64,000 nt of DNA from Nanobdellota archaeon (lineage in GTDB: Archaea > Nanobdellota > Nanobdellia > Woesearchaeales > UBA9642): NCBI GenBank assembly GCA_021813435.1, contig JAKAKR010000016.1:1-64000 (forward strand), written 5' to 3'. The translations under genes were made by a program, and so were the position numbers. This document shows, piece by piece, positions 10,452 to 55,703 of the stretch. Positions within the stretch are counted from its first letter, which is position 1, and each line of letters opens with the position of its first letter. The notes under the pieces are model-generated. The model saw nothing but the letters and a program-made list of their open reading frames with translations. It searched no databases and had not been told where the DNA came from.

Positions 10452-11931
10452 TAGACTGTTCTGTGTCATACATCTTCTTTTGTAGCTGTTCTTCACGCGC
10501 AACACTATCCTGATACGTTTTCTTGAAATCAGCGACCTTGCCGGTAAATTTTTTGATAGCCTCACGTACAACTTCGCTTCTCCCGGTGATCATCCAATTA
10601 TCATAATAGTTATAGTCGACATAATCAATCAGAGCGATATGATCAAAATCTTTGGGAACATATTTCTTTAATGTATCAAAATCTTTTGCGCCATCGCTCA
10701 GTGCATATGCCCGTGCAGCTTGATCAGGGAATACATACGCAAACGCCGCGCTTTTTCTATCGCCATTAAAGAAGTCAATGTATCCGTCAATTGCCTGTGT
10801 ATCAATAATCGTCTCATCAGTTGTTGCATGATTAATGAAATAGTTATGGACAATACCCCATCGACGACTCAAATCATTCGCTAATGTTAATTGAATCAGC
10901 TTCTCATTTTTGGCCCCGCTTTCCACTGCAAAAAATGTTGCAAGGCTGAGAAGCGGAAGCGCAATTGCGGTACGTAGACCATATCGTTTTATGCGGTTTG
11001 AAGATCTGCTCTCTTCGTACTGCTGATTCGCATGTTCCACTGCGGTCAATAATTCTGCGCCATCTTTCAAACGATCAGTATGATGATACAACGCGGAACG
11101 CAATAATTTTTTGAAATATTTCGGCATCCCGGAGGTTTTTTTATCAATTAACCTGTTCCATTTTTTTCGGGCATAATTCTCGTGTATGAATGTCTTTGCG
11201 TGTGTAGGGGTGTTGCCGAATTCTTCTTTAAACAATTTTTTCCCGGCAAGCATTTCATAGAGGATTGTTCCTGCAGAATACACATCTGACGCCATAATCG
11301 GCGCTTCGGAAAAATTTTCAGGAGCACGCGAATACAAATACCCCACATTATCGCGACCATGCGATCCGCCGGTCGCATTTCCAAAATCAGTTATTTTCAC
11401 AATCTTTTGGGTAGTGTACCCGATATTATCCTTTTTGAGGTCTCCATGTATGACCCCGATTTTTTGTTCAAGAGTATTATTGACAATGTCGCCTGATTGT
11501 CGCATAATATGCGTGTGAAGATCACGAAGCCCTGCAGCGATACCTTGAGTAATATGTAATATTTCTTTCGTGTTGACTGATCCCTCAGCGATATAATCAG
11601 ACAAGAATCGATCGACGTATTCCTCAGCGACAAACGGCGTTCCATCATCAGCGACATCGACATAATGGAATGCAAGATTAGTAAACGCGGTCGTATTACC
11701 ATAGAGACCTTCTTTTATCCAGATTTCTTTTTCAGAAAGGTTTCTTTGCTTCGATTGCTCATATGCAACGTCGGTTCTATTAAGAAATTTAAGTGCCCAA
11801 GTAGAATGATCGGAATTTCTCTTTGCCTTCCATACGTCTTTCCAAAATCCTGAATTGATATAGTTCTCTATGGTGAATCCGGAGGTGTGCGGCAATGATT
11901 TTATTTGTTTCAGAGGCAGTATATTACTCAT
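10420..11931 (-). CDS. Membrane-anchored Ser/Thr protein kinase, module 1
   Basis: Eukaryotic-type kinase domain at about residues 20-300 of 503. The ATP-binding Lys is in 'WALKF' (K48), the catalytic loop reads HGDLKKDN (162-169) and Asp-Phe-Gly is at 182-184. The glycine loop is weak. A single transmembrane helix (about 319-336) is followed by a ~165-residue probably extracellular domain of unknown fold. The start at 11931 is chosen because GGAGGTG lies just upstream; an in-frame ATG at 11961 lacks this. The upstream ribbon-helix-helix gene overlaps it by eight bases, so the two are coupled. Confidence 0.82.
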   Translation of the reverse strand: MSNILPLKQIKSLPHTSGFTIENYINSGFWKDVWKAKRNSDHSTWALKFLNRTDVAYEQSKQRNLSEKEIWIKEGLYGNTTAFTNLAFHYVDVADDGTPFVAEEYVDRFLSDYIAEGSVNTKEILHITQGIAAGLRDLHTHIMRQSGDIVNNTLEQKIGVIHGDLKKDNIGYTTQKIVKITDFGNATGGSHGRDNVGYLYSRAPENFSEAPIMASDVYSAGTILYEMLAGKKLFKEEFGNTPTHAKTFIHENYARKKWNRLIDKKTSGMPKYFKKLLRSALYHHTDRLKDGAELLTAVEHANQQYEESRSSNRIKRYGLRTAIALPLLSLATFFAVESGAKNEKLIQLTLANDLSRRWGIVHNYFINHATTDETIIDTQAIDGYIDFFNGDRKSAAFAYVFPDQAARAYALSDGAKDFDTLKKYVPKDFDHIALIDYVDYNYYDNWMITGRSEVVREAIKKFTGKVADFKKTYQDSVAREEQLQKKMYDTEQSIKRSLKLIGK

Positions 11932-12088
11932 GCAACTCACCTCCTCCTGTAGTTTTTGCATAGCGCAAGAATTTTTCTATTGCATATTCAATGACGTGGC
12001 TCTTGTTCCGAAAGAGCGGATTTTGTGATAGTGATTCGAGTCTCTCGTCAAGTGTTTCCTCGATCGAGATACTGATCTTTTTCTTCAT
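11924..12088 (-). CDS. Ribbon-helix-helix (CopG-like) small DNA-binding protein
   Basis: A 54-residue ORF. It starts with a basic beta strand (MKKKISISI), then 'EETLDERLESL' and 'FRNKSHVIEYAIEKFL', the pattern of ribbon-helix-helix repressors with the turn at Asn-Lys-Ser. It overlaps the kinase start by eight bases. Three copies of the hexamer/heptamer AAAGTAG or its complement lie just upstream around its TATA box, suggesting autorepression. It could be an antitoxin-like regulator, but no toxin is adjacent; the partner is a kinase. Confidence 0.7.
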   Translation of the reverse strand: MKKKISISIEETLDERLESLSQNPLFRNKSHVIEYAIEKFLRYAKTTGGGELHE

Positions 12089-16748: not shown

Positions 16749-17783
16749 TTAGTTTTTCTGCGCTTGACGCGCGAGCGCCTTCGAGTATGATTCACGATAC
16801 TGCATGCTTGCAAATATCATGTTTTCCATGAACTCGCGGTTATCATCGCCACGGACGACGATCAATGGATCTTTACGATTATAAAACGATTTTACTGCAC
16901 TATATACTGAGCCGTCCCAATCTGTTTTTTTGAGTTGGTCAGCTGCAACGAGCGGCGTCATCATATCCGGGGCAGTCATTTCATATTCGTACCGTTTATC
17001 CTTATGGAACATGATGATTGTCGCTTTTGAATAATCATTCTTGAAATTCTTTTCTTTGATCGCGGATGTTGCATATATCCCTTCGGGAATTGGGATGAGA
17101 AGGACGTCCTTGAGCGGTGTAAATAGCGGTTTCGTTGCAAGATATTCCTTTGTGAAACGCATTGCGTCTTTGATTGCCGGTCCAACACCTTTCACAATCT
17201 CAGGATTATGATGTTTTTGAGAGACATCTAATACGTATGTTATCATTTTTTTATACACATCCCCAGCAATATCAAGATTATCCAGCGAATAGGTATAATT
17301 ATTTACTAAAGAATTGAATTGTTCCTTTTCAGATTCGTTCAGCGGTGATTTTGATCTTATGTATTTACTGATTTTTCGTCCTAAACGTACGCCACTGTAT
17401 GCTGCTGCGATATCTGCGCCTAGTGTCATCATATCAGTGCCCACATCGCTTTTTGGAATAGTGAGATTTACGTATATACCGCTGATTGCTCCAAGTAAGG
17501 ATTCTTGCGTATTCACAAATTTTGATGGACTTAAGCCAGTATTTTTCTTATTCGCAGGATTATTGCCCTGCTTTGCTGCTTGCGTCTCATGATATAATTG
17601 TGTTTCTGTGCATGTATCATATGTATCACACGCAGTGTCATCACACTTATACGTGCTATGCATGACCGCGGTTATGGTATTGTTTATTTCGATTCTCGAA
17701 AGCAAATATCGATCATTTAAAAACCCTGCAATAGTTCCTGCAGTAAATGCTGTACCGATACTTACCAGTTGTTCAAGATTCAT
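16749..17783 (-). CDS. Hypothetical membrane protein, last gene of the ubiquitin-like operon
   Basis: A 344-residue protein of unknown family. An N-terminal hydrophobic stretch ('VSIGTAFTAGTIAGFL') is followed by a short Cys-containing region with four cysteines near residues 45-57. Two hydrophobic segments follow near 95-150 ending in 'GVRLGRKISKYIRS', then a long soluble C-terminal domain. The start at 17783 has GGTGA upstream and overlaps the preceding gene by 11 bases. The neighbour at 17773-18654 has the same layout, so the two are probably distant paralogues acting together. Confidence 0.6.
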   Translation of the reverse strand: MNLEQLVSIGTAFTAGTIAGFLNDRYLLSRIEINNTITAVMHSTYKCDDTACDTYDTCTETQLYHETQAAKQGNNPANKKNTGLSPSKFVNTQESLLGAISGIYVNLTIPKSDVGTDMMTLGADIAAAYSGVRLGRKISKYIRSKSPLNESEKEQFNSLVNNYTYSLDNLDIAGDVYKKMITYVLDVSQKHHNPEIVKGVGPAIKDAMRFTKEYLATKPLFTPLKDVLLIPIPEGIYATSAIKEKNFKNDYSKATIIMFHKDKRYEYEMTAPDMMTPLVAADQLKKTDWDGSVYSAVKSFYNRKDPLIVVRGDDNREFMENMIFASMQYRESYSKALARQAQKN

Positions 17784-18654
17784 AGGAATCACCTTTTTTG
17801 TAGTATTGACTAATGGTTTGCGCAATATGGCGCTTGATGGGTATGGAATTGAATTCACAATGCGCGTCTGCTTTGAGGATGATGAGTTGTGTTTCTGGAG
17901 TGAATCGTTTGATGAGTGATGGATACCCTTCAATAAACTTCTCTGCGCGTGCAACAATTGCGGTCGATGATACATCCTTGGTTGGATTGAGTGTATAGAG
18001 CATATCGCGATGGATAAGATAGAGCTGCGGATTTTCAGGTTTTTCCGATGCATACGTAAGTGTCGCAAACCCTTTTTCATCCACTAATTTCTGTGCACCT
18101 TGCCGGAATAATGATTGCGCTTCTGCAAGATGTATCGCATCAATAAGTCTAGTGTAGAGCTTCACATTTTTATGATGTCGAGTAATAGTATCTGCGTATA
18201 GTGTTGCTTCAGCGCTGGGTTGTACCGCTGATTCAGAGATATCACTATTGACAATATAGTCAAGTTTCTTCTCGAACTGTTTTTTTTCGTGTTTGGATAC
18301 TGTTGCATGATTGCGCAGGGTCTTACTTACTGCGCGTCCAATACGCATACTTGCAAGATAGATTGCCGTGTATCCAAAGCCATTCGCGGCAAGGCTTATC
18401 AGGGTCTCGCTCGGCGCAAATACGACGCCGGCAATTCCTGCGTGAATCGATGTGTAATAATCCAGATTTGGACTTTCTTCTATGACCAACGTACAGTCCT
18501 TAACCTTTTTATCATATTCTTGCTTCGTACACGATTCCTTGATAAGGATCGGTACGTATTCTGCATTAAATATGTCTGTGCGATCTTTCACGATCCCGTG
18601 CGTTATCCCTGCAGCGATGGTTGCAGAAATGAGTAACATATCGGTGAGTTCCAT
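17773..18654 (-). CDS. Hypothetical membrane protein, paralogue of the next gene
   Basis: A 293-residue protein. It has an N-terminal hydrophobic helix ('MLLISATIAAGITHGI'), two Cys residues near 42 and 53, a central hydrophobic pair (about 68-105) ending in 'SMRIGRAVSKTLRNHA', and a soluble C-terminal domain. The order of features matches the following gene. No known family was recognised. It begins 43 bases after the frameshifted member of the cysteine family and probably belongs to the same operon. Confidence 0.6.
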   Translation of the reverse strand: MELTDMLLISATIAAGITHGIVKDRTDIFNAEYVPILIKESCTKQEYDKKVKDCTLVIEESPNLDYYTSIHAGIAGVVFAPSETLISLAANGFGYTAIYLASMRIGRAVSKTLRNHATVSKHEKKQFEKKLDYIVNSDISESAVQPSAEATLYADTITRHHKNVKLYTRLIDAIHLAEAQSLFRQGAQKLVDEKGFATLTYASEKPENPQLYLIHRDMLYTLNPTKDVSSTAIVARAEKFIEGYPSLIKRFTPETQLIILKADAHCEFNSIPIKRHIAQTISQYYKKGDSYES

Positions 18655-18696
18655 GGTTTCACGTTTTTTATTGATATATGTTGATCATCTCCATTT

Positions 18697-19001
18697 TTAT
18701 TCGACATCAATCGCGCTAAGCAGCGTATTCAGGTTTACTGCAAGCTTCTTGTAATCTTTTTCAAGATATGATTGTTCTATTGCAATCCAATCCTGCGCGT
18801 AATATTTTACGTACACAGAATGTGTCTTGCAATCGATCGCTTCAACCTTTTACATGCACTATACACTTCGATTGCACGCTTCTCAAGCATCCCCAACTCA
18901 TCTGACGTATATTCAAGTGACTTTTTCAGGAACGGGAATTGTCCATTGAGCCAATCCCTCAAATCATACCGATGATGGGAGGTTATTTGAAATTCATTCA
19001 T
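18697..19001 (-). pseudogene. Frameshifted fifth member of the operon's cysteine family
   Basis: The first frame (start 19001) encodes 'DLRDWLNGQFPFLKK' and 'LEKRAIEVYSACKRL', matching the helical domain of the four neighbours, then stops at 18807. The next frame continues the homology: an 'IDC' segment at the position of the family's invariant Cys and a C-terminal helix, ending at 18697. Adding one A to the AAAA run near 18865-18870 joins the frames. It lacks the SH3-like N-terminus and the 'HHGT' end. It could be a decayed gene, a real frameshift or a sequencing error. Its start overlaps the preceding gene by eight bases. Confidence 0.6.
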
Positions 19002-19896
19002 TTTTGCCCCCAATAGGATTTACATATGCCATAGTTGCATCAAAATCATTATTTTTTTTCACAGCGTCGTATCTGGCGGGTTTACTCTCATTTCTTATAT
19101 CAAAATTATCATACCTATCAAAAAGGTCATATCTGTCGAAATGTTCACGCCTGCCAAATAATCCAGAGTAATAGCTTTGATTCGCATATGCTGTACGACA
19201 ACCGTCTACAGGGATTACTCGATCTATCTGTTCTATAAACGTTGTTTCTGGACCCTTGAATTTTTTAACAACGTGTTTCAAATATTTAACATCCTGCTTA
19301 GTGAGTCTGGTTAATTCCCCAATCAATATATAATTATTTTTTCCATCAAATTTTTGTCTTTCATTAAATACAAGATATCTTGTTGAAGTTCCATTTTCAT
19401 CTCCTATTCTATACACAAAAGCGTTAAGATTTCCAAATGAAAACCTGCCGTAACCTGCCCCATCCAAATATCGTCCTGCTTCGGTGTGATGTTTATCTCC
19501 TCCTAAACTTATGGATAATTTTTCTAATGAGCTCACAAAAGCCTCTAAACTTCTTGCTCTATTATTTGGATTGCCTGTGGTTCCAAATCCCTCCTCAAAT
19601 TTATTCCAACCGTAGCGTAATCCTGCAGTAGCGCAAGCTTCCGTGGATAAGACTCCATGATTGACTGCGCCTAATGCTGCTTGATATATCTCTTCCTTAC
19701 GGCTCTCTAAATCTTGATATACTCTTCTTTTTTTTGCGTATGTTTTAAGGTCAGGGAATTGTTCTCTAATCCATAGTGCAAATTCTTCTCTAACATTAAA
19801 TACGGGCTTGAACTCTTTACTCGTTGAATGCATTTCTTCAATCGGGGACTCTCCCAGTAGTAAATCATCTAGTTTATCGTTTATCATTTTAATCAT
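18994..19896 (-). CDS. Cysteine-family paralogue D with extra C-terminal domain
   Basis: About 300 residues. The first third lacks the SH3-like domain and begins directly with the family's helical module: 'EFKPVFNVREEFALW', 'QFPDLKTYAKK' and the invariant Cys88 in 'TEACATAG'. After a 'KHH' motif it has an extra ~150-residue domain not seen in its paralogues, with short Phe-Asp-Arg-Tyr repeats near the C-terminus. The domain 'YLVFNERQKFDGKNNYILIGELTRL' region (split here by its YLVF and ILIGEL parts) looks beta-rich. The start is uncertain: ATGs at 19896 and 19887 are both possible. It overlaps the preceding gene by a few bases. Confidence 0.6.
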   Translation of the reverse strand: MIKMINDKLDDLLLGESPIEEMHSTSKEFKPVFNVREEFALWIREQFPDLKTYAKKRRVYQDLESRKEEIYQAALGAVNHGVLSTEACATAGLRYGWNKFEEGFGTTGNPNNRARSLEAFVSSLEKLSISLGGDKHHTEAGRYLDGAGYGRFSFGNLNAFVYRIGDENGTSTRYLVFNERQKFDGKNNYILIGELTRLTKQDVKYLKHVVKKFKGPETTFIEQIDRVIPVDGCRTAYANQSYYSGLFGRREHFDRYDLFDRYDNFDIRNESKPARYDAVKKNNDFDATMAYVNPIGGKNE

Positions 19897-20746
19897 CCAT
19901 TTTCTTTGTTCCGTGATGTTTTTTATAGCCATTGCTTGAAATACTCTCTAGGTTCAATGAGAGGAATTCAATAAAGCTGACAAATTTTTCTAATCTAGCA
20001 GCAAACACACCAGAATATGTTGCAAAATCAGAGTAGTACAGGCCATCCGGTTTTTGCCCGTTAAATGTGCAATAAACAGTTCTGAAATCAATTAATGCAC
20101 AGCCTCTAAGAGTTTTTGTCCCGTGTTCATAAGCCATTTTTGCTCCATTCATCACTTCGATTTTTCTTTTTTCTAAAGAGTCGTATTCTTTTTCTTTTTT
20201 AGCGTAATCTTTTAATTCAGGGAATTCCTGCCTGACCCATACTGCATATTCTTCTCGTGGATTGAATTCTGGTTTGAATGGCTCGCTCTTTTTTATAGAG
20301 TCATCTGTTGTTTTGGAAATCTCATTACCATAATTCTTAATTCTTAACATGATCTTTTTATACTGCTCTGCAAGATTTAGCTTAATTAAAACCTTAGGAA
20401 CAACGACTTCTTCGATACTCATTGGTTCTTTTTTTGCATCTTTCTGTGTTGTAGGTTCCTCTAGTTGCAACATTTTTTCTAATTCTGAGTCTTTTTCTTT
20501 TTGCCTTTTCTTTTCTACTTCTTCAACTTCTTTGCTTGTACATAATTCATCGGGATGAACACTCCATGTTGTACCATTCGATAGTCTTACGTATATTTCT
20601 TTTTCGCTTACACTTTTGACAATCCCTTTCGATCCTAAAGGAACATCGCTAACACTACCACCATAATAATACCCCGATTTTCCATTTCCATGTTCTATTC
20701 CAAGATTTCTTCTGATGACAACATCCTGGCCTTTTTCGTAATTCAA
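19889..20746 (-). CDS. SH3-like/cysteine-family paralogue C
   Basis: 285 residues. Residues 1-68 form a beta-rich, SH3-like module ('GQDVVIRRNL', 'GSKGIVKSV', 'WSVHPDEL'). A charged coiled-coil linker (70-155) follows, then a helical module with 'FKPEFNPREEYAVW' and invariant Cys216 in 'RGCALIDF', and a C-terminal 'YKKHHGT' motif. No named family was recognised. It starts with TTG, overlapping the E1 stop by four bases with GGTGA upstream, so translation is coupled to the E1. A 207-base stretch is identical to paralogue B. The conserved Cys and His residues next to E1 and JAMM genes make an E2- or E3-like role possible but unproven. Confidence 0.65.
   Translation of the reverse strand: MNYEKGQDVVIRRNLGIEHGNGKSGYYYGGSVSDVPLGSKGIVKSVSEKEIYVRLSNGTTWSVHPDELCTSKEVEEVEKKRQKEKDSELEKMLQLEEPTTQKDAKKEPMSIEEVVVPKVLIKLNLAEQYKKIMLRIKNYGNEISKTTDDSIKKSEPFKPEFNPREEYAVWVRQEFPELKDYAKKEKEYDSLEKRKIEVMNGAKMAYEHGTKTLRGCALIDFRTVYCTFNGQKPDGLYYSDFATYSGVFAARLEKFVSFIEFLSLNLESISSNGYKKHHGTKKMDD
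20261..20467. repeat. 207-base direct repeat, copy 1 (in paralogue C)
   Basis: This stretch appears identical to 22535-22741, an offset of 2274 bases. It encodes the linker and the start of the helical module. The flanking parts of the two genes have diverged, which points to recent gene conversion or to selection on this linker. Confidence 0.85.
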
Positions 20747-22155
20747 CTTCCATCACCCTTTTCTCCAATTGATGCATATTTCTCTTTCAAATCACACAAC
20801 CACTCATGGATATCGCTACGAGAACAATCGCATGGATTGCTTGCACCCACTAATCCTCCCCTAGTCGAAACATTAGCATCATATTTGAGGATTCTCGAGA
20901 CTGGAGCGCCATACCCTTTATCAATCACTTTCAATGCTTCCCCAATCATCATTCCCCCAATAACTTCATTAGTCATAATTACACTAGGATCCGGCTCATC
21001 AGTACATTTATTGCCCTGCAGCGATATCCCGAGAGCTTTTTCAACACCCATTTTGCAATCAAGGCAAGCACTTTGCCCCGGTTCATATACGACAACCTGT
21101 CCCGAATGCGCATTTGTGCCGCCGCTGACTAGAGGAATACTATAATGCACTGCAAAATAATTTATGATGGCCCTTACTGAGAATTTATCAACACAATCAA
21201 ATATAAGGTCTGGCTTCTTTTGAGAGAAATATGTTGAATTCTCATCTAATTTTCCCACCAATCCCTCAACATGTATATTTGGATTAATTTTCTTAATTTT
21301 TTCTGCTAATGCAGCGGACTTTGCTTTTCCGACAGCATCATAAAATAGTATTTGCCTGTTGAGGTTATGATCTTCTACCTCATCATAATCTAAAATATCA
21401 ATATAACCAAATCCTTCTAATGCTGCTCCAAGAGCAACAAAATTACCCAGTGCACCTGCGCCAACTATCAGGATTCTTTTTTGTGATATATCTTCATAAG
21501 GTTGCGCGTCAAATTCTTTTTCAGCATTAAATCTTCTTTCAACAGTCGCATTGTAAACTAATTTTTTAATCGGTTTTTCTCCATCGGCAAGAGGCATTAT
21601 ATGCTTTCGGGTCTCTTCAGTGATCATTCCTCCGAATAGTTCACTACTAAAATTTCCTTGAGTCTCGCCAGCGTATTCTGATAGATTTGCGCCATTGACG
21701 TCTTCTCCGGGTTTTACATAATATAGTGCTCCTCCAGTTTTATCTGTTGATGCTGATATAACACTAATCCCTTCAGATGAAGCATAGTTCATCACTCTAT
21801 CTTTGAGATCAGGAGTATTTGTCAAATCTAAAATCAGGTCAGTTTTCTTATCGAGTGACCTCTCGAGGGAATCATCAATTTTGGTCTGCTTGACTTTTAT
21901 TCCAGAATTTATTTGTTGCAGTATATTCTCTATTGATTGGTTCTCATAGTTTTCAGATAAGGAAGTTAAGAATCCCTTATTTACACCATCATCATAAATT
22001 TCTATATTTCCTATCCCTAATGCTGCTAATGATGCAGCAGTAAACTGGGATAATGGACCACTACCGATGATTGCAACCTTTGCATCAGTTAATCTATTCT
22101 GATCCCAATTCTTAATCCGTTGTTGTCTATCATATCGAATATTGTCGTTTGTCAT
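20743..22155 (-). CDS. Tandem two-domain E1-like (ThiF/MoeB/Uba1-type) activating enzyme
   Basis: 470 residues with two ThiF/HesA folds. Domain 1 (about 1-200) has a nucleotide-loop-like 'IIGSGPLSQF' and looks degenerate. Domain 2 (about 205-430) is complete: GAGALG (232-237), 'DYDEVEDHNLNRQ' with the Arg finger (255-267), 'GKAKS', zinc ligands Cys364/Cys367 with Cys442/Cys444, and a candidate catalytic Cys384. This inactive-active order resembles the adenylation domains of eukaryotic Uba1. No ubiquitin-fold domain is present. It should adenylate the C-terminal glycine of a ubiquitin-like protein. It sits between paralogues B and C and near JAMM and ATPase genes in one operon. Confidence 0.85.
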   Translation of the reverse strand: MTNDNIRYDRQQRIKNWDQNRLTDAKVAIIGSGPLSQFTAASLAALGIGNIEIYDDGVNKGFLTSLSENYENQSIENILQQINSGIKVKQTKIDDSLERSLDKKTDLILDLTNTPDLKDRVMNYASSEGISVISASTDKTGGALYYVKPGEDVNGANLSEYAGETQGNFSSELFGGMITEETRKHIMPLADGEKPIKKLVYNATVERRFNAEKEFDAQPYEDISQKRILIVGAGALGNFVALGAALEGFGYIDILDYDEVEDHNLNRQILFYDAVGKAKSAALAEKIKKINPNIHVEGLVGKLDENSTYFSQKKPDLIFDCVDKFSVRAIINYFAVHYSIPLVSGGTNAHSGQVVVYEPGQSACLDCKMGVEKALGISLQGNKCTDEPDPSVIMTNEVIGGMMIGEALKVIDKGYGAPVSRILKYDANVSTRGGLVGASNPCDCSRSDIHEWLCDLKEKYASIGEKGDGS

Positions 22156-22156
22156 T

Positions 22157-23020
22157 TTATTTTACCTTTACTGTTCCATGATGTTTTTTATAACCTCTGC
22201 TTGAGACACTCTCTAAGTTGAGTGAGAGAAACTCAATAAAGCTGACAAATTTTTCTAACCTCTTGGCAAAAGTTCCAGAATCTGTTGCAAAGCTGGGGTA
22301 GCACAGATCTCTAGGATCGCCACCTGTTTTTCCATGAAGTACGTCATAGATATTCTTGAAATCAGTTAACGCGCAACCTGTGGCGGTTTTCATAGCATGA
22401 TCATACGCTTTTTTTGCACCATCCATAACCTCTGTTTTTCTCTTTTTCAAGGAATCGTATTCTTTTTCTTTTTCAGCATATTCTTTTAATTCAGGGAATT
22501 CCTGCCTAATCCATACTGCATATTCTTCTCTAACATTGAATTCTGGTTTGAATGGCTCGCTCTTTTTTATAGAGTCATCTGTTGTTTTGGAAATCTCATT
22601 ACCATAATTCTTAATTCTTAACATGATCTTTTTATACTGCTCTGCAAGATTTAGCTTAATTAAAACCTTAGGAACAACGACTTCTTCGATACTCATTGGT
22701 TCTTTTTTTGCATCTTTCTGTGTTGTAGGTTCCTCTAGTTGTAGTATTTCTTCTAATTGTGAATTCTTCGCTTCTTGTCTCTTCTTTTCTGCTTCTTCTG
22801 TTTCTTTGCTTGTACGTAATTCGTTAGGATGGACATTCCACCTGTTACCATTTGATAATCTTACATCTATTTTTTTCTCACTCACGTATTCGATAGTTCC
22901 TTTCGATCCGAGAGGAACATTGCTAACGCTACCACCATAATAATACCCCGATTTTCCATTTCCGTGTTCTATTCCAAGATTTCTTCTGATGACAACATCC
23001 TGACCTTTTTCGTAATTCAT
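22157..23020 (-). CDS. SH3-like/cysteine-family paralogue B
   Basis: 287 residues from the ATG at 23020, chosen to match its paralogues' 'MNYEKGQDVV' start. The SH3-like module (1-68), charged linker, helical module with Cys216 in 'TGCALTDF', and C-terminal 'YKKHHGT' follow the same order as paralogue C. The two proteins are identical over residues 108-162. It begins three bases after the stop of paralogue A and ends one base before the E1 start, so the three are translated from one message. Function unknown; see paralogue C for the proposed role. Confidence 0.65.
   Translation of the reverse strand: MNYEKGQDVVIRRNLGIEHGNGKSGYYYGGSVSNVPLGSKGTIEYVSEKKIDVRLSNGNRWNVHPNELRTSKETEEAEKKRQEAKNSQLEEILQLEEPTTQKDAKKEPMSIEEVVVPKVLIKLNLAEQYKKIMLRIKNYGNEISKTTDDSIKKSEPFKPEFNVREEYAVWIRQEFPELKEYAEKEKEYDSLKKRKTEVMDGAKKAYDHAMKTATGCALTDFKNIYDVLHGKTGGDPRDLCYPSFATDSGTFAKRLEKFVSFIEFLSLNLESVSSRGYKKHHGTVKVK
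22535..22741. repeat. 207-base direct repeat, copy 2 (in paralogue B)
   Basis: Identical to 20261-20467. Outside this block the genes differ at many positions, except for a second near-identical stretch of about 100 bases encoding the SH3-like start (around 20650-20746 and 22925-23020). Confidence 0.85.
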
Positions 23021-23025
23021 TTTAA

Positions 23026-23823
23026 TCAATCCATTATCGCGGTTCCATAGTGTCTCTCTTCTCTTCCATTGTTAAGATTATAGGATACATAAATGATATA
23101 CTTGAGAAAGTCATTTGTAGATCGCGTAAAATAATTTGTTTTACTTGATTCTACTAATGCGTTATACTTATCCGCAAAATTTCTCTTTACACAGTCCGTT
23201 GTTGTATCCATTGCATGTCTATATGCTTTTTTTGCTCCCCCGAGTACTTCTTCCTTTCTTTCAATTAATGCGATATACTTTTCCCCTCTTCTTGCATAGG
23301 TATCTAGTTCTGGAAATTCTTTTTTTAGCCAAACCGCATATTCTTCTCGTGGATTGAATTCTGGTTTGAACGGATTTCCTGCGTTCGATGCCACTTCTGT
23401 TCTTGATTTTCTAAAATAATTCAGGATTTTACTTACAATTCCTGTGTGTGTTTCCTTTTGATATTCGGTTCTGTTGCCCGTGTTTTCTTTTATGGCCTCT
23501 CTGTCTGTTATAATCTCTTCTTCTGTTTTAGGTTCTGCTACTTGTAGTATCTCTTCTAATTTTGAATCTATTATTTTTTGCCTTTTCTTTTCTGCTTCTT
23601 CATGCTCCTTGTTTGTACGTAATTCATCGGGATGAAGAGACCATTCTGTGCCATTCTGCAATTTTACATATATTGATGTTTTACTTACGCTTTCAATGAC
23701 TCCCTTTGATCCTAGAGGAACCTTTCTAATACTACCCCCATAATAATACTGAGATTTTTCTCTTCCATTTGCTATTCCAAGATTCCTTCTGATGACAACA
23801 TCTTGGCCTTCTTCGTAATCCAT
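23026..23823 (-). CDS. SH3-like/cysteine-family paralogue A
   Basis: 265 residues from the ATG at 23823, which aligns with its paralogues. An upstream GTG at 23874 would add 17 unrelated residues. It has the SH3-like module ('GQDVVIRRNLGIA', 'WSLHPDEL'), a linker that differs entirely from B and C, the helical module 'FKPEFNPREEYAVW', invariant Cys211 in 'TDCVKRNF', and a variant 'RHYGT' end. The linker divergence beside conserved ends suggests that the termini carry the function. It follows the JAMM gene after a short gap. Confidence 0.65.
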   Translation of the reverse strand: MDYEEGQDVVIRRNLGIANGREKSQYYYGGSIRKVPLGSKGVIESVSKTSIYVKLQNGTEWSLHPDELRTNKEHEEAEKKRQKIIDSKLEEILQVAEPKTEEEIITDREAIKENTGNRTEYQKETHTGIVSKILNYFRKSRTEVASNAGNPFKPEFNPREEYAVWLKKEFPELDTYARRGEKYIALIERKEEVLGGAKKAYRHAMDTTTDCVKRNFADKYNALVESSKTNYFTRSTNDFLKYIIYVSYNLNNGREERHYGTAIMD

Positions 23824-23880
23824 GTTATCATTTCTCCCAAGGTCTTTTCTTATTTCTGCTGCTGAGATACTCACTCACGG

Positions 23881-24807
23881 TCAGTATTTATCATCTTCCT
23901 GATTAGGACTAAAACCAAAATCAGGTTTAGTCAATGTCCCGGTGGTTTTCTTTTCTTCAAAAACTGAAGGCAAAAAATAATCTATAAGCTTCCGCGGTCT
24001 TTCAACAATTACCTTTTCATGGATTTCAGCTTTCAACTGATCATTATCTAATTTATATTCTTCTCCATCAAATATCTTGTAATTGACACGTTCACTTACA
24101 TCTTCAACATTCGCACAATTAAGGCATAAATCTCTAGTTGCAACTTCACAATACGGCACTCTTTTACTAAGCCATCTATGATGATTAACCACAAAACTAT
24201 ACGCAAACCCCACTCTTTTCTCTTCTAAAATCTGCAATTCTTGTGCTATGAGTTCAGGATTTTCTGTTTTTAATCCTATCCTGTAAGTGATTGATTGGTT
24301 TTCGGGATCCCAGAATATCAAATTGTTTCCCTCAACTCTGCTTTGCAAACCTCTGTACACCTTTTCTTTAGGGGATATGATATAATTGGAAGGAGAGATC
24401 TCATTTAACAAGACCATCTGATTATTTACATCAATTTTAGAATGAAATGTTTCATATCTTCCATGACTATGCCACCAGCCAACGATTTTTCTTCCCTGCT
24501 GATCCAACTCTTTACCTGCTTTAATGACATGTTCAGCACTTAATACGTACTCTCCCCGGTATACTTCTTGTTCACGAGGAAGAAACGCGTCTGTAGCTAC
24601 ACGATCCCTGGCATCTTTTGCCTTAGTGAGAAACCCTCCTATCTCAACATTCTTATTTCTGCTAAATTGCAAAACAAGCGCTGCATACCTGAATGCTTTA
24701 TCGTATGCAAACCGCGATATGTGCAATTCGTCAATACCAAAATTTTTGATCGGTACTTGATGTTCTACGGGTTCATCTCCTTGAAGGAGTGCATCTATGT
24801 TTGTCAT
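23881..24807 (-). CDS. JAMM/MPN+ metalloprotease (candidate deubiquitinase-like isopeptidase)
   Basis: 308 residues with a complete JAMM zinc site: Glu55 in 'VEIGGFL', His113-Ser-His115, seven residues, Ser123 and Asp126 (HxH-x7-S-x2-D). JAMM enzymes such as Rpn11 and archaeal HvJAMM1 remove ubiquitin-like proteins or trim their C-terminal tails. The C-terminal half adds a Cys-x(n)-Cys-x-x-Cys cluster near residues 195-215 that could bind zinc. A strong GGAGGA site precedes the ATG. It lies directly after the candidate ubiquitin-like gene, so a natural job is to expose that protein's Gly-Gly end and to reverse conjugation (inference). Confidence 0.88.
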   Translation of the reverse strand: MTNIDALLQGDEPVEHQVPIKNFGIDELHISRFAYDKAFRYAALVLQFSRNKNVEIGGFLTKAKDARDRVATDAFLPREQEVYRGEYVLSAEHVIKAGKELDQQGRKIVGWWHSHGRYETFHSKIDVNNQMVLLNEISPSNYIISPKEKVYRGLQSRVEGNNLIFWDPENQSITYRIGLKTENPELIAQELQILEEKRVGFAYSFVVNHHRWLSKRVPYCEVATRDLCLNCANVEDVSERVNYKIFDGEEYKLDNDQLKAEIHEKVIVERPRKLIDYFLPSVFEEKKTTGTLTKPDFGFSPNQEDDKY

Positions 24808-24839
24808 TTTTCCTCCTACTTAAATCGTAAGATTAAGCA

Positions 24840-25277
24840 TTAAATTCTATAGCCGCCTTGCTGTACCGCAGAGACTTCTATCTCGAGTTGCTGATAATTG
24901 ATTTTTTTACCAGCAACGTCCTTGTTTGCTTTGATAATGTAATCAGATACTTTATCAGTCAGTTTTGCATTCTTGCCATTAATGACGATAACACTACCTG
25001 CTGCTCCAAGCTCTTTTTTCAAGCTTGCAGCTGTTGCAGCCTCACTATCTTTTACTTGCGAATCTACAATATAGGCTAACACATCCCTAACACTCTTATC
25101 TACATAGCTTGAAGGAAGCCTTCTCATTAAAGCAGATTCAGAATCGGCCAAACCAGGTCTTGCAGTTGCAATCAAGGGCGTTGTTTCCTCTTGAGAACCT
25201 AAGACTTTCCTTTCTTGTTCTTTTATACTTTTGTATACACTATTTTCTAATCCGTCTTTTTTTTGTAATCCTGTCAT
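24840..25277 (-). CDS. Candidate ubiquitin-like modifier precursor
   Basis: 145 residues. The N-terminal ~85 residues are charged and partly helical. Residues 95-142 could form a compact beta-grasp: strand 'SVIVINGKNAKL', helix 'DKVSDYIIKANKD', strand 'QQLEIEVSAV', ending in Gly141-Gly142 followed by Tyr-Arg-Ile. A Gly-Gly with a short tail is the classic precursor form cut by a protease before E1 activation. The domain is shorter than most beta-grasp folds, so this call rests heavily on the adjacent JAMM, E1 and ATPase genes. GGAGGA lies seven bases upstream of the ATG. Confidence 0.55.
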   Translation of the reverse strand: MTGLQKKDGLENSVYKSIKEQERKVLGSQEETTPLIATARPGLADSESALMRRLPSSYVDKSVRDVLAYIVDSQVKDSEAATAASLKKELGAAGSVIVINGKNAKLTDKVSDYIIKANKDVAGKKINYQQLEIEVSAVQQGGYRI

Positions 25278-25287
25278 TTTATTCCTC

Positions 25288-26754
25288 CTAATTTACATTT
25301 CTCTGTAAATTAATATATCCATGTCTAAACATCTCTTCGTATTGACTGGCTTTTTCTCCAAATACATCTTTCCAGTCGTCTTTTACCAGAGTTTGAGTCA
25401 TTTGTGTTGTCTCATTCAATTCATCTTTGAAAGCACTATAGAGATCATCTTTACATATCCCTTTCTTACCATTTGCAATTTCCCTTTTTATCGCATAACC
25501 ACAGGCTCTTGCAACCATCCCTTCAATCATAGCACCGCTGATGAGATTCTTATATCCGAATTTTCCTAGGCATTGACCATCGGAGCTCATCACCCGATAT
25601 GCCATACTGTCATCTGAGAATATTTCATCAAGAATAGGTGATATAAAATCCCGTACTGATGTAAATGCGCCTTGCAAAGGCTTGTTTTTAAAATAAATAT
25701 CAAATATTTCATTGCAGCCTTTTTTGTTTGGTCGAGGAATTCTGATTTTTCTATCCACTCTACCATCTCTTAAAATCGCAGGATCAAGTATATCTTCCCT
25801 ATTAGTGGCAAGAATTGTTATGACATTATCAGTTGTTGACATACCATCTATTTCTGAAAGCCATTGTGGAACAATAGAATCATACACATCAGTAGATATT
25901 CCTGTTCCCCTCTTTTTTGCAATAGCTTCTGCTTCATCAACAAATACAACTGTAGGTGCTTTAGTTTCCCTCGAATTTTCCCTTGCTGCAGCATAAATAT
26001 TTCTTATATTCAATTCTGAGTTTCCAACATACTTATCTAGAATCTCGGGTCCTTTAACACTTATAAAGTGTGCATTTCCATTATTTGCAAGAACCCCAAG
26101 ATTATATGCAATAGATTTTGCGAGTTTCGTCTTACCACAGCCTGGCGGCCCAAATAATAAAATACCTTTCGCGGGTTTTTTGCCGTAGCGCTCATAGATC
26201 TTGCTGTGAGTTATTGGATATTCTATTTCCTCTTTGATAACAGAAATAACATCTTCTAAACCCCCAATGGTATTCCAAGGAGCTTTCTCTACTTCTTCAA
26301 GCATGTATTTTGTTTTTTTCTTATCAAAACGCTGAAGCGCAATGTATCCACCCTCATCGAGAAGAACTTCATCACCAACTTTTACAGTTCCGTTCATTGA
26401 ATTGTAAACAATGTGCGGCTTTCCATCTTTGATGACTTTTAGTCTGCCATCTTGGATTTCTTCAACAGACACTACTTGACCGGTCGGTGTAGGAAATTCA
26501 GATATACCCATTACTGCTGAAGTTTTTGGGTTCAATATTACTCTTGATCCTCTCGTGATAGATGTTTTTTCGAATTTCTCAGGCACTTTTGCTATTTCAT
26601 AAATCCCCTGATGATCTATTGCAATATGTGTTGTTTTAGTGCCTGAATCCAATACTGTTCCCGTCATATAAGGCGGCTGTTGAATTCGTTCTAATTCATC
26701 TTTAAGTAAAAGTATTTCTTTTTCCGCTTCCTCTAATTTTTGTTTATCATTCAT
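25288..26754 (-). CDS. ARC/Mpa-type AAA ATPase with tandem OB domains
   Basis: 488 residues from the ATG at 26754 (GGTGAGG nine bases upstream). A short coiled coil (about 3-27) leads into 'PPYMTGTVLD' and two OB folds (about 30-90 and 92-145), then an AAA module. Walker A GPPGCGKT is at 202-209, pore loop Tyr-Val-Gly near 242, Walker B 'VVFVDEAEA' near 269, and Arg fingers in 'LRDGRVDR'. The C-terminal part ('SGAMIEGMVARA', 'DDWKDVFGEKA') matches Mpa/ARC proteasomal ATPases rather than PAN, which has one OB domain. It lacks a C-terminal HbYX or Gln-Tyr-Leu docking motif, ending Arg-Asn-Val-Asn. It probably unfolds modified proteins or remodels complexes. Confidence 0.85.
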   Translation of the reverse strand: MNDKQKLEEAEKEILLLKDELERIQQPPYMTGTVLDSGTKTTHIAIDHQGIYEIAKVPEKFEKTSITRGSRVILNPKTSAVMGISEFPTPTGQVVSVEEIQDGRLKVIKDGKPHIVYNSMNGTVKVGDEVLLDEGGYIALQRFDKKKTKYMLEEVEKAPWNTIGGLEDVISVIKEEIEYPITHSKIYERYGKKPAKGILLFGPPGCGKTKLAKSIAYNLGVLANNGNAHFISVKGPEILDKYVGNSELNIRNIYAAARENSRETKAPTVVFVDEAEAIAKKRGTGISTDVYDSIVPQWLSEIDGMSTTDNVITILATNREDILDPAILRDGRVDRKIRIPRPNKKGCNEIFDIYFKNKPLQGAFTSVRDFISPILDEIFSDDSMAYRVMSSDGQCLGKFGYKNLISGAMIEGMVARACGYAIKREIANGKKGICKDDLYSAFKDELNETTQMTQTLVKDDWKDVFGEKASQYEEMFRHGYINLQRNVN

Positions 26755-26842
26755 CTTCATCTTCCTCACCGAGTTTCTCTTTCTTAATTTGATCGATGAC
26801 CTCGCCCTTTGGTTCTGTCATCCATAGATCGTATTTGTTCAT
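26747..26842 (-). CDS. Tiny acidic ORF before the ATPase
   Basis: A 31-codon ORF in the operon, starting 23 bases after the beta-rich protein's stop and overlapping the ATPase start by eight bases. AAGGGT lies seven bases upstream. The C-terminus is a run of Glu and Asp residues. It could be a real small protein or only a coupling ORF that guides ribosomes to the ATPase start. It does not carry the Gly-Gly-Gln/Glu end of Pup. Confidence 0.35.
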   Translation of the reverse strand: MNKYDLWMTEPKGEVIDQIKKEKLGEEDEDE

Positions 26843-26864
26843 TGTTTTACCCTTTTGCCTTTGT

Positions 26865-28118
26865 TCAAAATCCATAATTTGCGATTACGTATAGATGTGT
26901 CTTCTTATTGAGCCCATCGTAGCGTGCTTCGATTGCACCTTTGAAATCCCCGATGTTGATGGGTTTGAATGCTTCAATGATGAGTCCACTCTTTTTTTCC
27001 GTATCATGACCATATTGTGTATTGATCCCGATTCCGAATTGCAGGATGTCATTACGATTTGCGGCAACAACTTCGAATGCCTTTGCTCCATGCTCATTCC
27101 CTTTTGCTTCGACTTTGAGTGCGATATCTGCCTTGGTAGAGACTGGTCCAAGATGCATGGGATTGAATTGGTCGAGACAGAAGTAATTTGATGCAATGTT
27201 GAACATCTCTGTTGAATAGAATCCTTGGTTTACATCGCCGAATCCTGTCTGTGATTTGATCCAGTAGTCTCCTGTCCTGCGATCGTATTTTGCGAATGCA
27301 AATTCTCCGAAATCCTTGAACCCCTTGATTCCTGCAAATCCATAAGTAACATTTGTATTATTTCCAAGTGCAAGATATCCATGTTCAGGATGCACGGCTA
27401 TCCATCCATAGATTCCGGTATTATCAAAATCCATCCATTTTGTTCCGATAAGTCCGCGTGCTGAAAAGAATCCGCCTTCTGCTGTAAAATTTTCATGGCT
27501 TAATCTGGAAATTATAAAGTCCTGTCTATGGGTCTTTTGCCCGACGCCTGTTCCAAGTTCAAGGTATCCTTCGATTTTACCTAGAGACGTTTCGAATTTT
27601 TTCTTTCCATAGAGGTCCAGATAATGGACATCGCGTTCATTCCAATCGCCTGTCTTCAGATATCCTGCACCCAGCGTTATTCCGGCAACTGAGAACTCTG
27701 GCCCGAACATTGTAAGAACATCACCCTGTTCTTTACCGGTCTTGATATCATGTTGTGCGACATATCTGATGAATGTACCATTATTGAATGTGATCTTTGT
27801 GTCTTGCACTCCTGAACCGTTCGCATCAGGTGATTGCGTGATTGATCCTTCCATAGAAATATTTGTAGGTACAAATCCATGTTTTAGCGCATGATTTTCC
27901 TGAGCATCTTTATGCGCATCTTCCTGTAGTTTCTTTGCATAGAGCGCATTAAAAGAATCAAGCTGCGCTCGTGTAGTGTCCTTCTTTTCGTAGAATTGAA
28001 CAGCTGCTGCAGTAGCGATATCTTGCACATATTTCTGTTCGAGCACAGTGGTATCTGGCTGTCCAGATAATGCATTCAACAGCTTCACTGTGTTTACGAT
28101 GTGCGATAGGCTCATCAT
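26865..28118 (-). CDS. Beta-rich hypothetical protein, first gene of the ubiquitin-like operon
   Basis: About 417 residues from the ATG at 28118 (GGAGG four bases upstream). The first ~80 residues are helical; the rest is a long series of alternating strands with Gly and aromatic residues ('GITLGAGYLKTGDW', 'GKIEGYLELGTGVG', 'TNVTYGFAGIKGF', ending 'LYVIANYGF'). The pattern and the final aromatic residue resemble outer-membrane beta-barrels, but there is no signal peptide and archaea usually lack such a membrane. It may be a large soluble beta structure, or a substrate or scaffold for the system encoded downstream. No family recognised. Confidence 0.6.
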   Translation of the reverse strand: MMSLSHIVNTVKLLNALSGQPDTTVLEQKYVQDIATAAAVQFYEKKDTTRAQLDSFNALYAKKLQEDAHKDAQENHALKHGFVPTNISMEGSITQSPDANGSGVQDTKITFNNGTFIRYVAQHDIKTGKEQGDVLTMFGPEFSVAGITLGAGYLKTGDWNERDVHYLDLYGKKKFETSLGKIEGYLELGTGVGQKTHRQDFIISRLSHENFTAEGGFFSARGLIGTKWMDFDNTGIYGWIAVHPEHGYLALGNNTNVTYGFAGIKGFKDFGEFAFAKYDRRTGDYWIKSQTGFGDVNQGFYSTEMFNIASNYFCLDQFNPMHLGPVSTKADIALKVEAKGNEHGAKAFEVVAANRNDILQFGIGINTQYGHDTEKKSGLIIEAFKPINIGDFKGAIEARYDGLNKKTHLYVIANYGF

Positions 28119-28254: not shown

Positions 28255-29169
28255 ATGAAACGCAAAATTGTACGACAGGGGAAGGCCACACTCATGATCA
28301 GTCTCCCTACAAAATGGTGCCACGAGTACAATCTTCAGAAAGGGGGAGAAGTTGATGTTGAGATAAAAGAAGGAAGCGTTCTCATCAATGCCACACCCCA
28401 TGCACAGCGACGGGAAACGACGATTGCACTTGCAGGACTCGTCGAATCAGCAATACGCACAGTCATCACAAACACCTACCGGACAGGATTCGACCGTATC
28501 CGTGTTAATATCGCAAATGATGAGCAGTATAGCATCGTTCAACAAGTCATCAAGAATAATCTTATCGGGTTCGACATCACCAAAAAGGAGAAAGAGTATC
28601 TTATCATTGAAAATATTACAGAGCCTGGATCCGAACATTTCGAGAATCTTCTTACAAAAATATTTTACAATATTCTTGAATTATTTACATACACTAGCGA
28701 TCGACTTAAGGGGAAAAAACCTATCGAAGATTATCATGAAATCGAGTCACGGATACAGCAATACGACAATTTCTGCCGAAGAGTCATCACGAAGCAAAAT
28801 ATCGACCATGAACGGAACCCGTTATTTTGGACATTTCTGACGCTTATGATCCACGGGCAGCGCGAACTCTATCTTGCAAACACTTATCTCGATGCGCATG
28901 CATTCAAAGTGTCTAAAGAAACGAATGCACTTCTTGAACGCATTAAAGCAGTATTTGAGCATATCATGGATGCCTATCTCAAAAAGGACATTACCCTTCT
29001 CGAATCTATCCATGCAGAAGAAAAGACACTTATCTACAACGAGTCATATTTCCTGCTCGAAAAAAAACACGGGAAAGAATCCGTATTGCTATACCACTTT
29101 TCTGCGAGTTTACGTAATTTTTATCTATCAAGCAGTCCACTGATAGGATTAATTCTTCGCAATAAATGA
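28255..29169 (+). CDS. AbrB-domain PhoU-like regulator, copy 2
   Basis: 304 residues, a paralogue of the 9552-10451 protein along its whole length. The AbrB domain starts 'MKRKIVRQGKATLMISLP' with 'LQKGGEVDVEIKEGSV', and a PhoU-like helical region follows with 'NTYRTGFDRIRV' matching 'HAYRQGFEKIRL' in copy 1. Divergent from the ubiquitin-like operon and convergent with kinase 2, overlapping that gene by 21 bases. Copy 1 has the same relation to kinase 1. A leaderless transcript is likely. Confidence 0.82.
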   Translation: MKRKIVRQGKATLMISLPTKWCHEYNLQKGGEVDVEIKEGSVLINATPHAQRRETTIALAGLVESAIRTVITNTYRTGFDRIRVNIANDEQYSIVQQVIKNNLIGFDITKKEKEYLIIENITEPGSEHFENLLTKIFYNILELFTYTSDRLKGKKPIEDYHEIESRIQQYDNFCRRVITKQNIDHERNPLFWTFLTLMIHGQRELYLANTYLDAHAFKVSKETNALLERIKAVFEHIMDAYLKKDITLLESIHAEEKTLIYNESYFLLEKKHGKESVLLYHFSASLRNFYLSSSPLIGLILRNK

Positions 29170-31101
29170 GTCTCTCGTTGAAGATGCGGGCATCGCTGCA
29201 TGCGTACTGTCGTGAGCGTATGCGGCAAGAGATGGCGATTGCTGCTTTTCCGATGCATCAACAGATTTTACTGTCCCATCGTCATTAAGCGCGAAATAAA
29301 AGGCGATAGCGCGATCAACAAGCTCACGCTTCTCGGATGGAAGATAGAATCGATAGCCGTTTACATATCCTTCAACAGTCTGACTTACTACTTTCTCAGT
29401 GATGTGATCAGCTTTGATGGACGGACCGACTTCAGTAATACTTATGGGAAAATATCTTGTGGATTTGGCCCGTTCTTTTGCTGTCGCGATATCTTCTGAT
29501 GTGCAGAAATATTTGACAAAAGTATCCTCGAGTCTGTCATCTGATGAGGATTGCGCAACATAGTAATTCAGCGCGGCGCCTATTGATTGTAAAGTGCTTG
29601 ACTCTATGCCACTCATCCGATCATCTACAGCCGACATCACATCTGCCTTGCTCATAACATATATGAATGGTTTTGGAACAAGCGTTTTGGAAAGATGATT
29701 GGCATATGCGCGCCGAGTGCCATCATTGCGTCCGAGGTATGCTGCGAGAATAATTGCAGTAAAATCTTTAGGTTCCTCTACAAAAAATGTTCTACTCGCC
29801 ATATGAATGTCTGCAAGGACATCCTGCACATCACTTCGCGTCATCTGATGACGCAATTCCTGTACGTATCCTTTCATGTCATCGAGAAGCCCCAGCGGAC
29901 TTGGAGTAGCGGTGTTACCTAAAATGAGATTGTGTGAAAGATATCTTTTTGTGTCAAGAAGTTCACGTAGCGTGGGCGAATGATCATTAACAAATTTTGT
30001 ATTCGGTTGAAGGGCTATCACCGCAGCAAGCGAAGCGATAGCGGAGAGCATAAAACTCGCCGGCTTACGAATCCGTTTCAACGTTTCCTTAAAATTTTTC
30101 TTACGATCAATGCGTTCAAGATCATATGCAAGATCGGTGGTGTTATAGTAGATGTCTTTTTTGAAACTCATGCATTTACGGATGACTTTACGATATTCGG
30201 ACGGCGCTGCCTTTAGTGCCTTCTCCAGATTGTGTTCGTGTTCTTCGAGTGATATTGATTTTATCTTTTTATTATTGTTAGTCAATGAGACTTTTATTTC
30301 ACGATCGGGAAGTTTGATTGCGGAACCGTTATCATCATACGTCACATCATAAGAGAACGGCACTTTTCCCGTAAGCGCAAAATACATCGACGCACCGATC
30401 GCATACATATCTGTCTTAATATTGCAACTTGATTCCTGCATAGAGACGAGCGCATTAAGAATTTTTGGTGAAGTATAATTTGTTCCTCCACGCGTTGGAA
30501 GCAGTTGATCACGGATTTTACTTTCACGTTTAGCATTCTGTAGATCTGTGATTTTTATGCGAAGATTCTTATCGATAATGATGTTGGAGGGCTTGATGTC
30601 GCGATGAATGAGCGGGTCAAAGAAGTGCCCGGGAGTGTGCATGTGATGGAGATAGGATATTCCTGCGGTGACGCCGCTAAAGATTGCAAGGAATTGATCT
30701 TTTTTTAATGGACCATTCTTATTCACGAAATCCTCGAGTGTTTCTCCATCGATATAATCTTCAACCGTACAGTATTTATTATTGATGATGATCACATCGC
30801 GGATGGTTGCGATGTTAGGATGATCTTCAAGTTCGTTAGCGCATTCAATCTCGTTAATGTTGATATTGTTCCTCGGGAATTTTGACTGATTAATGACCGT
30901 ACAGATAGAATTTTCATTGATTTTAGGTTTCGTAATTTTTACTGCAAGTGTCTTTACTAATCCATTGTGCTGATAGCGCGCTTTAAATACATCGCGCGTC
31001 TGGCCTTCACCAACCCACTCCAATATCTCATAATGTTGGTCTTGGAGCGACTGCAAATCTTTTTCTGTGAGTACCTCTTCGATTGATTTGTGATTCATCA
31101 T
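29149..31101 (-). CDS. Membrane-anchored Ser/Thr protein kinase, module 2
   Basis: 650 residues. Kinase domain at about 22-330: glycine loop 'GEGQTRDVF', ATP-binding Lys in 'LAVKI', catalytic loop HRDIKPSN (166-173), and the metal-binding motif changed from Asp-Phe-Gly to Asp-Leu-Gln (186-188). The key Asp is kept, so activity remains plausible. A transmembrane helix near 345-363 is followed by a ~285-residue domain, probably extracellular, with no recognised fold. AGGAG precedes two adjacent ATGs (31101, 31098); the second has better spacing. A palindrome lies upstream of its TATA element. Confidence 0.82.
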   Translation of the reverse strand: MMNHKSIEEVLTEKDLQSLQDQHYEILEWVGEGQTRDVFKARYQHNGLVKTLAVKITKPKINENSICTVINQSKFPRNNININEIECANELEDHPNIATIRDVIIINNKYCTVEDYIDGETLEDFVNKNGPLKKDQFLAIFSGVTAGISYLHHMHTPGHFFDPLIHRDIKPSNIIIDKNLRIKITDLQNAKRESKIRDQLLPTRGGTNYTSPKILNALVSMQESSCNIKTDMYAIGASMYFALTGKVPFSYDVTYDDNGSAIKLPDREIKVSLTNNNKKIKSISLEEHEHNLEKALKAAPSEYRKVIRKCMSFKKDIYYNTTDLAYDLERIDRKKNFKETLKRIRKPASFMLSAIASLAAVIALQPNTKFVNDHSPTLRELLDTKRYLSHNLILGNTATPSPLGLLDDMKGYVQELRHQMTRSDVQDVLADIHMASRTFFVEEPKDFTAIILAAYLGRNDGTRRAYANHLSKTLVPKPFIYVMSKADVMSAVDDRMSGIESSTLQSIGAALNYYVAQSSSDDRLEDTFVKYFCTSEDIATAKERAKSTRYFPISITEVGPSIKADHITEKVVSQTVEGYVNGYRFYLPSEKRELVDRAIAFYFALNDDGTVKSVDASEKQQSPSLAAYAHDSTHAAMPASSTRDSFIAKN

Positions 31102-55669: not shown

Positions 55670-55703
55670 CTGCATTCGGAGGCTCCAAACGCAGTACGGA
55701 AGT

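Follow-up and report, generated by a model that had tools for sequence, protein, structure and literature searches.

Bacterial Bil systems carry out ISG15-like, anti-phage conjugation. They comprise a ubiquitin-like protein (Ubl; BilA), an E2 (BilB), a JAB protease (BilC) and an E1 (BilD) in which an inactive adenylation domain is joined to an active one, and a tandem E1 beside a Ubl and a JAMM protein is already known from these bacteria (PMC11354881). Ubl, JAB, E1-like and E2-like genes also come together in the mobile, patchily distributed operons of Iyer-Aravind types 6a-6e (PMC1779556). Here we analyze a gene cassette in a 64,000-nucleotide stretch of the genome of a Nanobdellota archaeon of the order Woesearchaeales (assembly GCA_021813435.1, contig JAKAKR010000016.1; hereafter, the window), for which the most fitting description is that of a novel variant, in archaea, of the prokaryotic Ubl–E2–JAB–E1 systems, akin to Bil and Iyer type 6. 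The conserved set, Ubl–E2-like–JAMM–tandem E1, recurs in about a tenth of the related tiny archaea, and the window probably harbors an E2-less derivative of this Ubl conjugation cassette of Diapherotrites, Parvarchaeota, Aenigmarchaeota, Nanoarchaeota and Nanohaloarchaeota (DPANN), in which reversible Ubl tagging would be coupled to unfolding.

The cassette proper spans about 18.7-26.8 kb of the window on the minus strand and encodes an ARC/Mpa-type AAA ATPase, a Ubl precursor, a JAMM protein, a tandem E1 and SH3/helical proteins that share a cysteine. The central features are these:

25288..26769, minus strand: ARC/Mpa-type AAA+ ATPase with a short N-terminal coiled coil, an OB region and an AAA domain (TIGR03689)
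24840..25277, minus strand: Ubl precursor, 145 amino acids (aa), predicted beta-grasp core at residues 35-136 (homologues, AlphaFold2, Foldseek)
24852..24857, minus strand: residue pair Gly141-Gly142 of the Ubl, ahead of the terminal YRI; JAMM is predicted to process the precursor here (sequence)
23881..24807, minus strand: JAMM/MPN+ isopeptidase, 308 aa (Pfam Prok-JAB, E=3.5e-7)
24430..24471, minus strand: JAMM metal/catalytic motif H113-x-H115-x7-S123-x2-D126, with Glu E55 at 24643-24645 (alignment)
20743..22155, minus strand: tandem E1, 470 aa, inactive N-terminal and active C-terminal adenylation domains (ThiF twice)
21004..21006, minus strand: E1 Cys384, candidate thioester/thiocarboxylate cysteine (invariant in 12 homologues)

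So how does this locus compare with the described systems? Genome searches, together with NCBIfam, Pfam and PADLOC, did not place it fully in Bil, PRTRC, SAMP or Pup. The relatives of the cassette share with Bil the BilA-B-C-D gene order and the tandem of an inactive and an active E1 domain; however, the present system is archaeal, its Ubl is modelled with a single beta-grasp domain whereas BilA has two, the E2-like family of the relatives lacks the CEHH motif of the Bil E2, the E1 appears to be devoid of the ~80-aa insert for the alpha-helical Cys domain, ARC/ClpX and SH3 partners are present, and the window copy has neither the Ubl–E2–JAB–E1 order nor the E2-like gene. The likeness to the Iyer-Aravind operons consists in the set of Ubl, JAB, E1-like and E2-like genes and in their mobile, patchy occurrence. 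Type 6d of these operons corresponds to PRTRC, from which the cassette differs in that the PRTRC_ThiF model yields 32 bits, its cut-off being 144.75; the PRTRC A/B/C/E/F/ParB models of NCBIfam matched none of the scanned proteins. With the Ub-E1-E2-RING-Rpn11 system of Caldiarchaeum, the cassette shares the archaeal Ubl/E1/E2/JAMM logic and an N11-like best PDB match of its JAMM profile, but its E1 is a tandem, no RING gene was recognised and the E2-like family is a different one. The SAMP/UbaA/HvJAMM1 system likewise combines an archaeal Ubl, E1 and JAMM and, as the window copy, is E2-free, but here we are dealing with an operon that includes a tandem E1, and the UbaA model reaches 92 of the 450 bits that its cut-off requires. 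Finally, the ATPase is of the same type as in the Mpa/ARC-Pup proteasome, but no Pup ligase was detected in the four genomes tested and the tag is a predicted beta-grasp protein. No DPANN cassette of this kind is described in the open literature searched, which left out the central Bil and Bub papers, and the novelty of the system is therefore provisional.

An earlier note on this DNA, made from the sequence alone, had proposed a Ubl precursor with a Gly-Gly end, a JAMM protein with all metal ligands and a two-domain E1, and all three assignments are borne out. The Ubl ends in QQGG followed by YRI; the Ubls of the relatives mostly carry G or GG at the same site and then a tail of 0-20 residues. 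A search of 99 relatives turned up two divergent homologues, and a three-row profile detected the Ubl in 16 of the 353 genomes of the order. Apart from the Pfam and NCBIfam matches reported here, the products of the open reading frames (ORFs), including this 145-residue protein, gave no significant Pfam match, and a PDB sequence search with the Ubl profile yielded no convincing relative. The AlphaFold2 model, built from a 14-row alignment, has a mean predicted local distance difference test (pLDDT) score of 80, with most of the core above 85-90, and shows a single domain of the form beta-beta-alpha-alpha-beta-beta-beta-beta. Its best PDB matches in Foldseek are SUMO and ubiquitin, the nearest folds (probability 0.96-0.99, E about 0.02), along with MoaD and Atg8 (for all four, probability up to 0.99, E about 0.02-0.09, template modelling score about 0.45-0.63 by target length), so the predicted structure supports a beta-grasp fold, albeit not overwhelmingly.

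All 13 aligned homologues of the JAMM protein keep E55, H113, H115, S123 and D126, in accord with the E...HxH...S..D pattern; the family profile retrieves from PDB the N11-like protein 6fjv (6.8e-9, the best match) and BRCC36 (about 1e-6). The E1 matches Pfam ThiF in two stretches (2.3e-61). In its C-terminal half, GxGALG, D256, D258, N264, R267, Q268, K279, D320 and Cys384 are invariant in 12 homologues, as are C364 and C442, the probable Zn ligands. The N-terminal half lacks those residues; of its RYxRQ motif (RYDRQ in the window), the source of the arginine finger in MoeB and NAE1-UBA3, it retains R7, R10 and Q11. The invariant residues of both halves are those of a canonical E1 pseudo-dimer.

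The architecture of this E1 bears on an alternative under which the cassette would function in a sulfur-carrier, Urm1- or SAMP-like mode, that is, in thiocarboxylate sulfur transfer to tRNA or a cofactor; any modification would then at most be direct and E2-free. The loop bearing the E1 cysteine is short (about 20 aa, C364 to C384) and resembles that of ThiF/MoeB, and the window copy has no E2, both of which fit such a mode. We nevertheless regard it as unlikely: a JAMM protein is present throughout, the C-terminal tail of the Ubl requires proteolysis, the relatives possess an E2-like gene along with ARC or ClpX partners, and the E1 falls far below the cut-offs of the NCBIfam ThiF, MoeB and UbaA models.

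The cassette recurs within the order. Of its 353 genomes, 42 have the tandem E1 (E<=1e-60) and 45 have the E2-like gene (E<=1e-5); the two coincide in 36 genomes, where 5.4 would be expected (p about 2e-34 assuming independent genomes, which they are not). The Ubl co-occurs with the E1 in 15 of 16 genomes, and the E2-like gene is carried by 38 of the 371 genomes sampled across the phylum. Profile scans of the fetched neighbourhoods show that Ubl, E2-like, JAMM and tandem E1 are consecutive genes on the same strand. Among the 30 loci with E2-like, JAMM and E1 genes on one contig, the order E2→JAMM→E1 is conserved in 29; at L091, E2 and JAMM are separated by two additional genes. A Ubl-scoring ORF (E<0.01) directly precedes the E2-like gene at 24 of the 29 loci, and the ORF in that position is unscored at the other five. 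The sole complete locus with a swap of E1 and JAMM is L084 (Ubl–E2–E1–JAMM). The separate system that had been suggested is supported, as a Ubl system of DPANN, by some 30 further loci, although the ordered set envisaged in the earlier note, ATPase-Ubl-JAMM-E1-cysteine family, gives way to Ubl–E2-like–JAMM–E1, with ARC being rare and the cysteine family nearly private to the window. No clear ortholog lacking the Ubl or E1 while keeping the rest was seen; L034 and L081 are incomplete or fragmentary. With the Ubl also predicted to be a beta-grasp protein, neither of the two refutations named in the earlier note has come about.

The E2-like family has no Pfam match, including none to the Pfam E2, and its alignment shows no conserved Cys-x5-Glu-x-His pattern; it does contain a single Cys after an [HS]P motif that is invariant in the alignable copies. 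In an hhalign comparison with seven yeast UBC sequences, the score was 23-24 (E 0.005-0.007) for a subset chosen post hoc and 15.3-17.9 for the full set, with a maximum of 15.5 in 60 shuffles; the match of that subset, chosen afterwards, is collinear (YPFxPPK...HPN...IC). A PDB sequence search with the E2-like profile produced no convincing relative.

With the UBC-like profile, no window frame gave a match (the best E was about 3), and genome-wide searches detected neither an E2-like gene nor a canonical UBC in the genome of the window. Thus, the operon cannot be called complete-looking, as it had been, because the E2-like gene of the relatives is missing from both cassette and genome. In 14 other genomes the E1 scores above 500 bits, and every one of them carries the E2-like gene; the nearest relative of the window E1, at locus L028 (48% identity, support 100/99 in the E1 tree), is embedded in the arrangement Ubl–[SH3-E2]–JAMM–E1. 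Given that this nearest relative has the module and that the SH3 proteins of the window carry a helical domain instead, the natural reading of these sequences is that the E2 module was lost in the lineage of the window.

These SH3 proteins and their relatives account for the remainder of the cassette:

23026..23823, minus strand: SH3-like + helical Cys protein, copy 1 (profile of the copies)
22157..23020, minus strand: SH3-like + helical Cys protein, copy 2 (profile scans)
19889..20746, minus strand: SH3-like + helical Cys protein, copy 3, a near-duplicate of copy 2 (profile scans)
18994..19932, minus strand: helical Cys domain extended at the C-terminus and lacking SH3 (helical-domain profile, E=2.5e-49, the protein itself being a member of the profile)
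18697..19001, minus strand: small helical gene, frameshifted (helical-domain profile, E=0.0073; frames read by eye)

The three SH3 proteins match the SH3 N-terminus of the L028 E2-like protein (E=1.4e-13), with the helical domain replacing the E2-like part. The earlier observation of paralogues with an invariant cysteine stands insofar as four of them share one Cys; its conservation, however, is weak evidence of a carrier function because the Cys is shared mainly by recent duplicates within the window, and the sole outside relative of the helical domain, the intact counterpart of the frameshifted gene in the G070 cassette (L031:6630-6959; helical-domain profile, E=0.0011), is a weak match with no Cys at that site. 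The Cys family is essentially confined to the window cassette. These proteins may or may not replace the missing E2-like protein, and the specific proposal that they took over from a UBC-type E2, their shared Cys accepting the Ubl from the tandem E1 and conveying it to substrates that are then passed to the ARC unfoldase in an E2-free, unfoldase-coupled system, appears doubtful to us. The C-terminal part of 18994-19932 was also considered as kin of the E2-like mid domain, and the profile gave no match. SH3-domain proteins (up to 1187 aa) are encoded downstream of E1 at L074-L078, L082, L088 and L037 as well; such downstream proteins are likely a fifth component, and perhaps target adaptors.

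The ATPase was correctly recognized as ARC/Mpa-type: it matches TIGR03689 (pup_AAA) over residues 10-478 with 378 bits (E=5e-113), short of the curated cut-off of 504.75, with the next NCBIfam match, the PAN subfamily, at 222 bits. We accordingly call it ARC-like rather than an equivalog, since the score is below the cut-off, yet the match is full-length and far above the next ones. In Pfam, it hits AAA (4.7e-34) and Prot_ATP_ID_OB_C (0.0012), and it shares 42-43% identity with its ARC counterparts at L007 and L027, the Walker motifs being conserved. ARC (E<=1e-70) was found in five of the 353 genomes, four of which are among the 16 genomes with the Ubl (p about 1e-5); it adjoins the Ubl in three of these four and is located elsewhere (L090) in G008. 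ClpX-like ATPases lie within the cassettes L006, L029, L074 and L091. Hence, ARC is an optional partner of the cassette, and because the ARC-bearing cassettes do not group in the E1 tree, unfoldases appear to have joined repeatedly or to have been lost often. Proteasome subunits are encoded in 16 of 16 genomes tested. An ATPase of the ARC/Mpa type might also suggest a relative of pupylation, in which ARC would act on a Pup-like tag. This is very improbable, being largely refuted by the absence of the Pup ligase (PF03136) from the four genomes tested, in a search that did detect the positive control, Corynebacterium; moreover, a folded beta-grasp protein is predicted for the tag rather than a disordered Pup, and an E1 is present.

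Taken together, a conjugation pathway would run as follows. The JAMM protein would trim the Ubl precursor to its Gly-Gly end; the tandem E1 would act as a fused pseudo-heterodimer whose inactive half lends an arginine finger to the active half, which would adenylate the Ubl and probably load it on Cys384. In the relatives, the E2-like protein (HP...Cys) would then receive the Ubl and transfer it to target lysines, whereas in the window copy, transfer may be direct from E1, proceed via the SH3-helical Cys proteins or be dead. The ARC ATPase would engage and unfold the tagged proteins, possibly into the genome-encoded 20S proteasome, and JAMM would strip the tag from proteins. The biological role would be accessory, plausibly in defence or proteostasis.

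Several observations weigh against this scheme. In the Foldseek search with the whole E2-like model, SH3 folds dominate and no UBC is among the top 50, which, together with the weak full-set UBC score, is why we name the family E2-like and not E2. The E-values of the Ubl fold matches are just about 0.02, and the co-occurrence p-values are overstated because the genomes are not independent. The ARC C-termini have no HbYX motif (that of the window ends in LQRNVN), so docking to 20S stays putative; ARC and ClpX are minority partners, and the unfolding step is therefore not general. Furthermore, the absence of the E2-like gene and the frameshift in 18697-19001 indicate that the window copy may be decaying. 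Under this explanation, to which the recent duplicates also lend themselves, the operon would be inactive after the E2-like loss or kept just for the ATPase and the SH3 proteins; we consider it rather unlikely, given that the Ubl, JAMM, E1 and ARC ORFs are intact with every catalytic residue in place and that the SH3-Cys genes were amplified, not lost. A four-gene Ubl cassette in about 10% of DPANN genomes would extend Bil-type systems to archaea; its E1 is two-headed in the manner of eukaryotes, its JAMM resembles Rpn11, and an unfoldase of the proteasome type is an optional partner. Such loci would be small natural test cases for the way in which Ubl tagging came to be coupled to unfolding, and they raise the question of the use that minimal archaea make of it.

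As had been noted, close-set minus-strand genes, about 12-13 ORFs by our count, run from 28.1 to 16.7 kb; of the proposed extent (16749-28118), the 18.7-26.8 kb portion holds, and both ends fall away. The segment 16749-18654 has a G+C (GC) content above that of the cassette and no tie to it. The other end is occupied by one gene:

26865..28118, minus strand: host-locus gene, probably outside the cassette (homologue at the same site in the cassette-less G001)

Its homologue in this genus-mate is 25% identical (E=7e-21). GC is 35-38% in the cassette genes and 40-46% in their neighbours; the flanking genes for an M50 protease and a SpoU-type methyltransferase are about 3-7 kb apart in the genus-mates G001 and G003, where the cassette is absent; and in the tandem-E1 and E2-like searches of the 353 genomes, the cassette is spread patchily over families. 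On account of the GC drop, the empty sites and this distribution, the cassette looks like an accessory, laterally acquired system. The scan of bacterial genomes for the E1 brought up L025, which has no such cassette; in L026, ThiF similarity is only partial. No relatives emerged from the E1 scan of viral contigs or from the E2 searches of plasmids and phages, and the E1 search of plasmids returned generic ThiF/MoeB-type partial matches only.

Some minor observations on the related loci and the rest of the window are worth recording. Tandem E2-like duplicates with no linked JAMM or E1 are found at L081, and L080 combines a full cassette with two further E2-like genes nearby. The second gene downstream of the tandem E1 at L039 encodes a protein-kinase domain (L039:13840-15339; Pkinase, 3e-31), and ORFs overlap there. 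In the window, the ORFs 29149-31101 and 10420-11961 both look like Ser/Thr kinases of eukaryotic type with a hydrophobic stretch after the kinase part; their respective neighbours, 28255-29169 and 9552-10451, are AbrB/PhoU-like genes. A 727-aa ORF at 6632-8815, adjoining a Liv-type ABC transporter, reads as two fused periplasmic-binding domains. The tRNA that ARAGORN calls at 55576-55670, whose anticodon would have four bases (atag), is probably a misread tRNA with a long variable arm.

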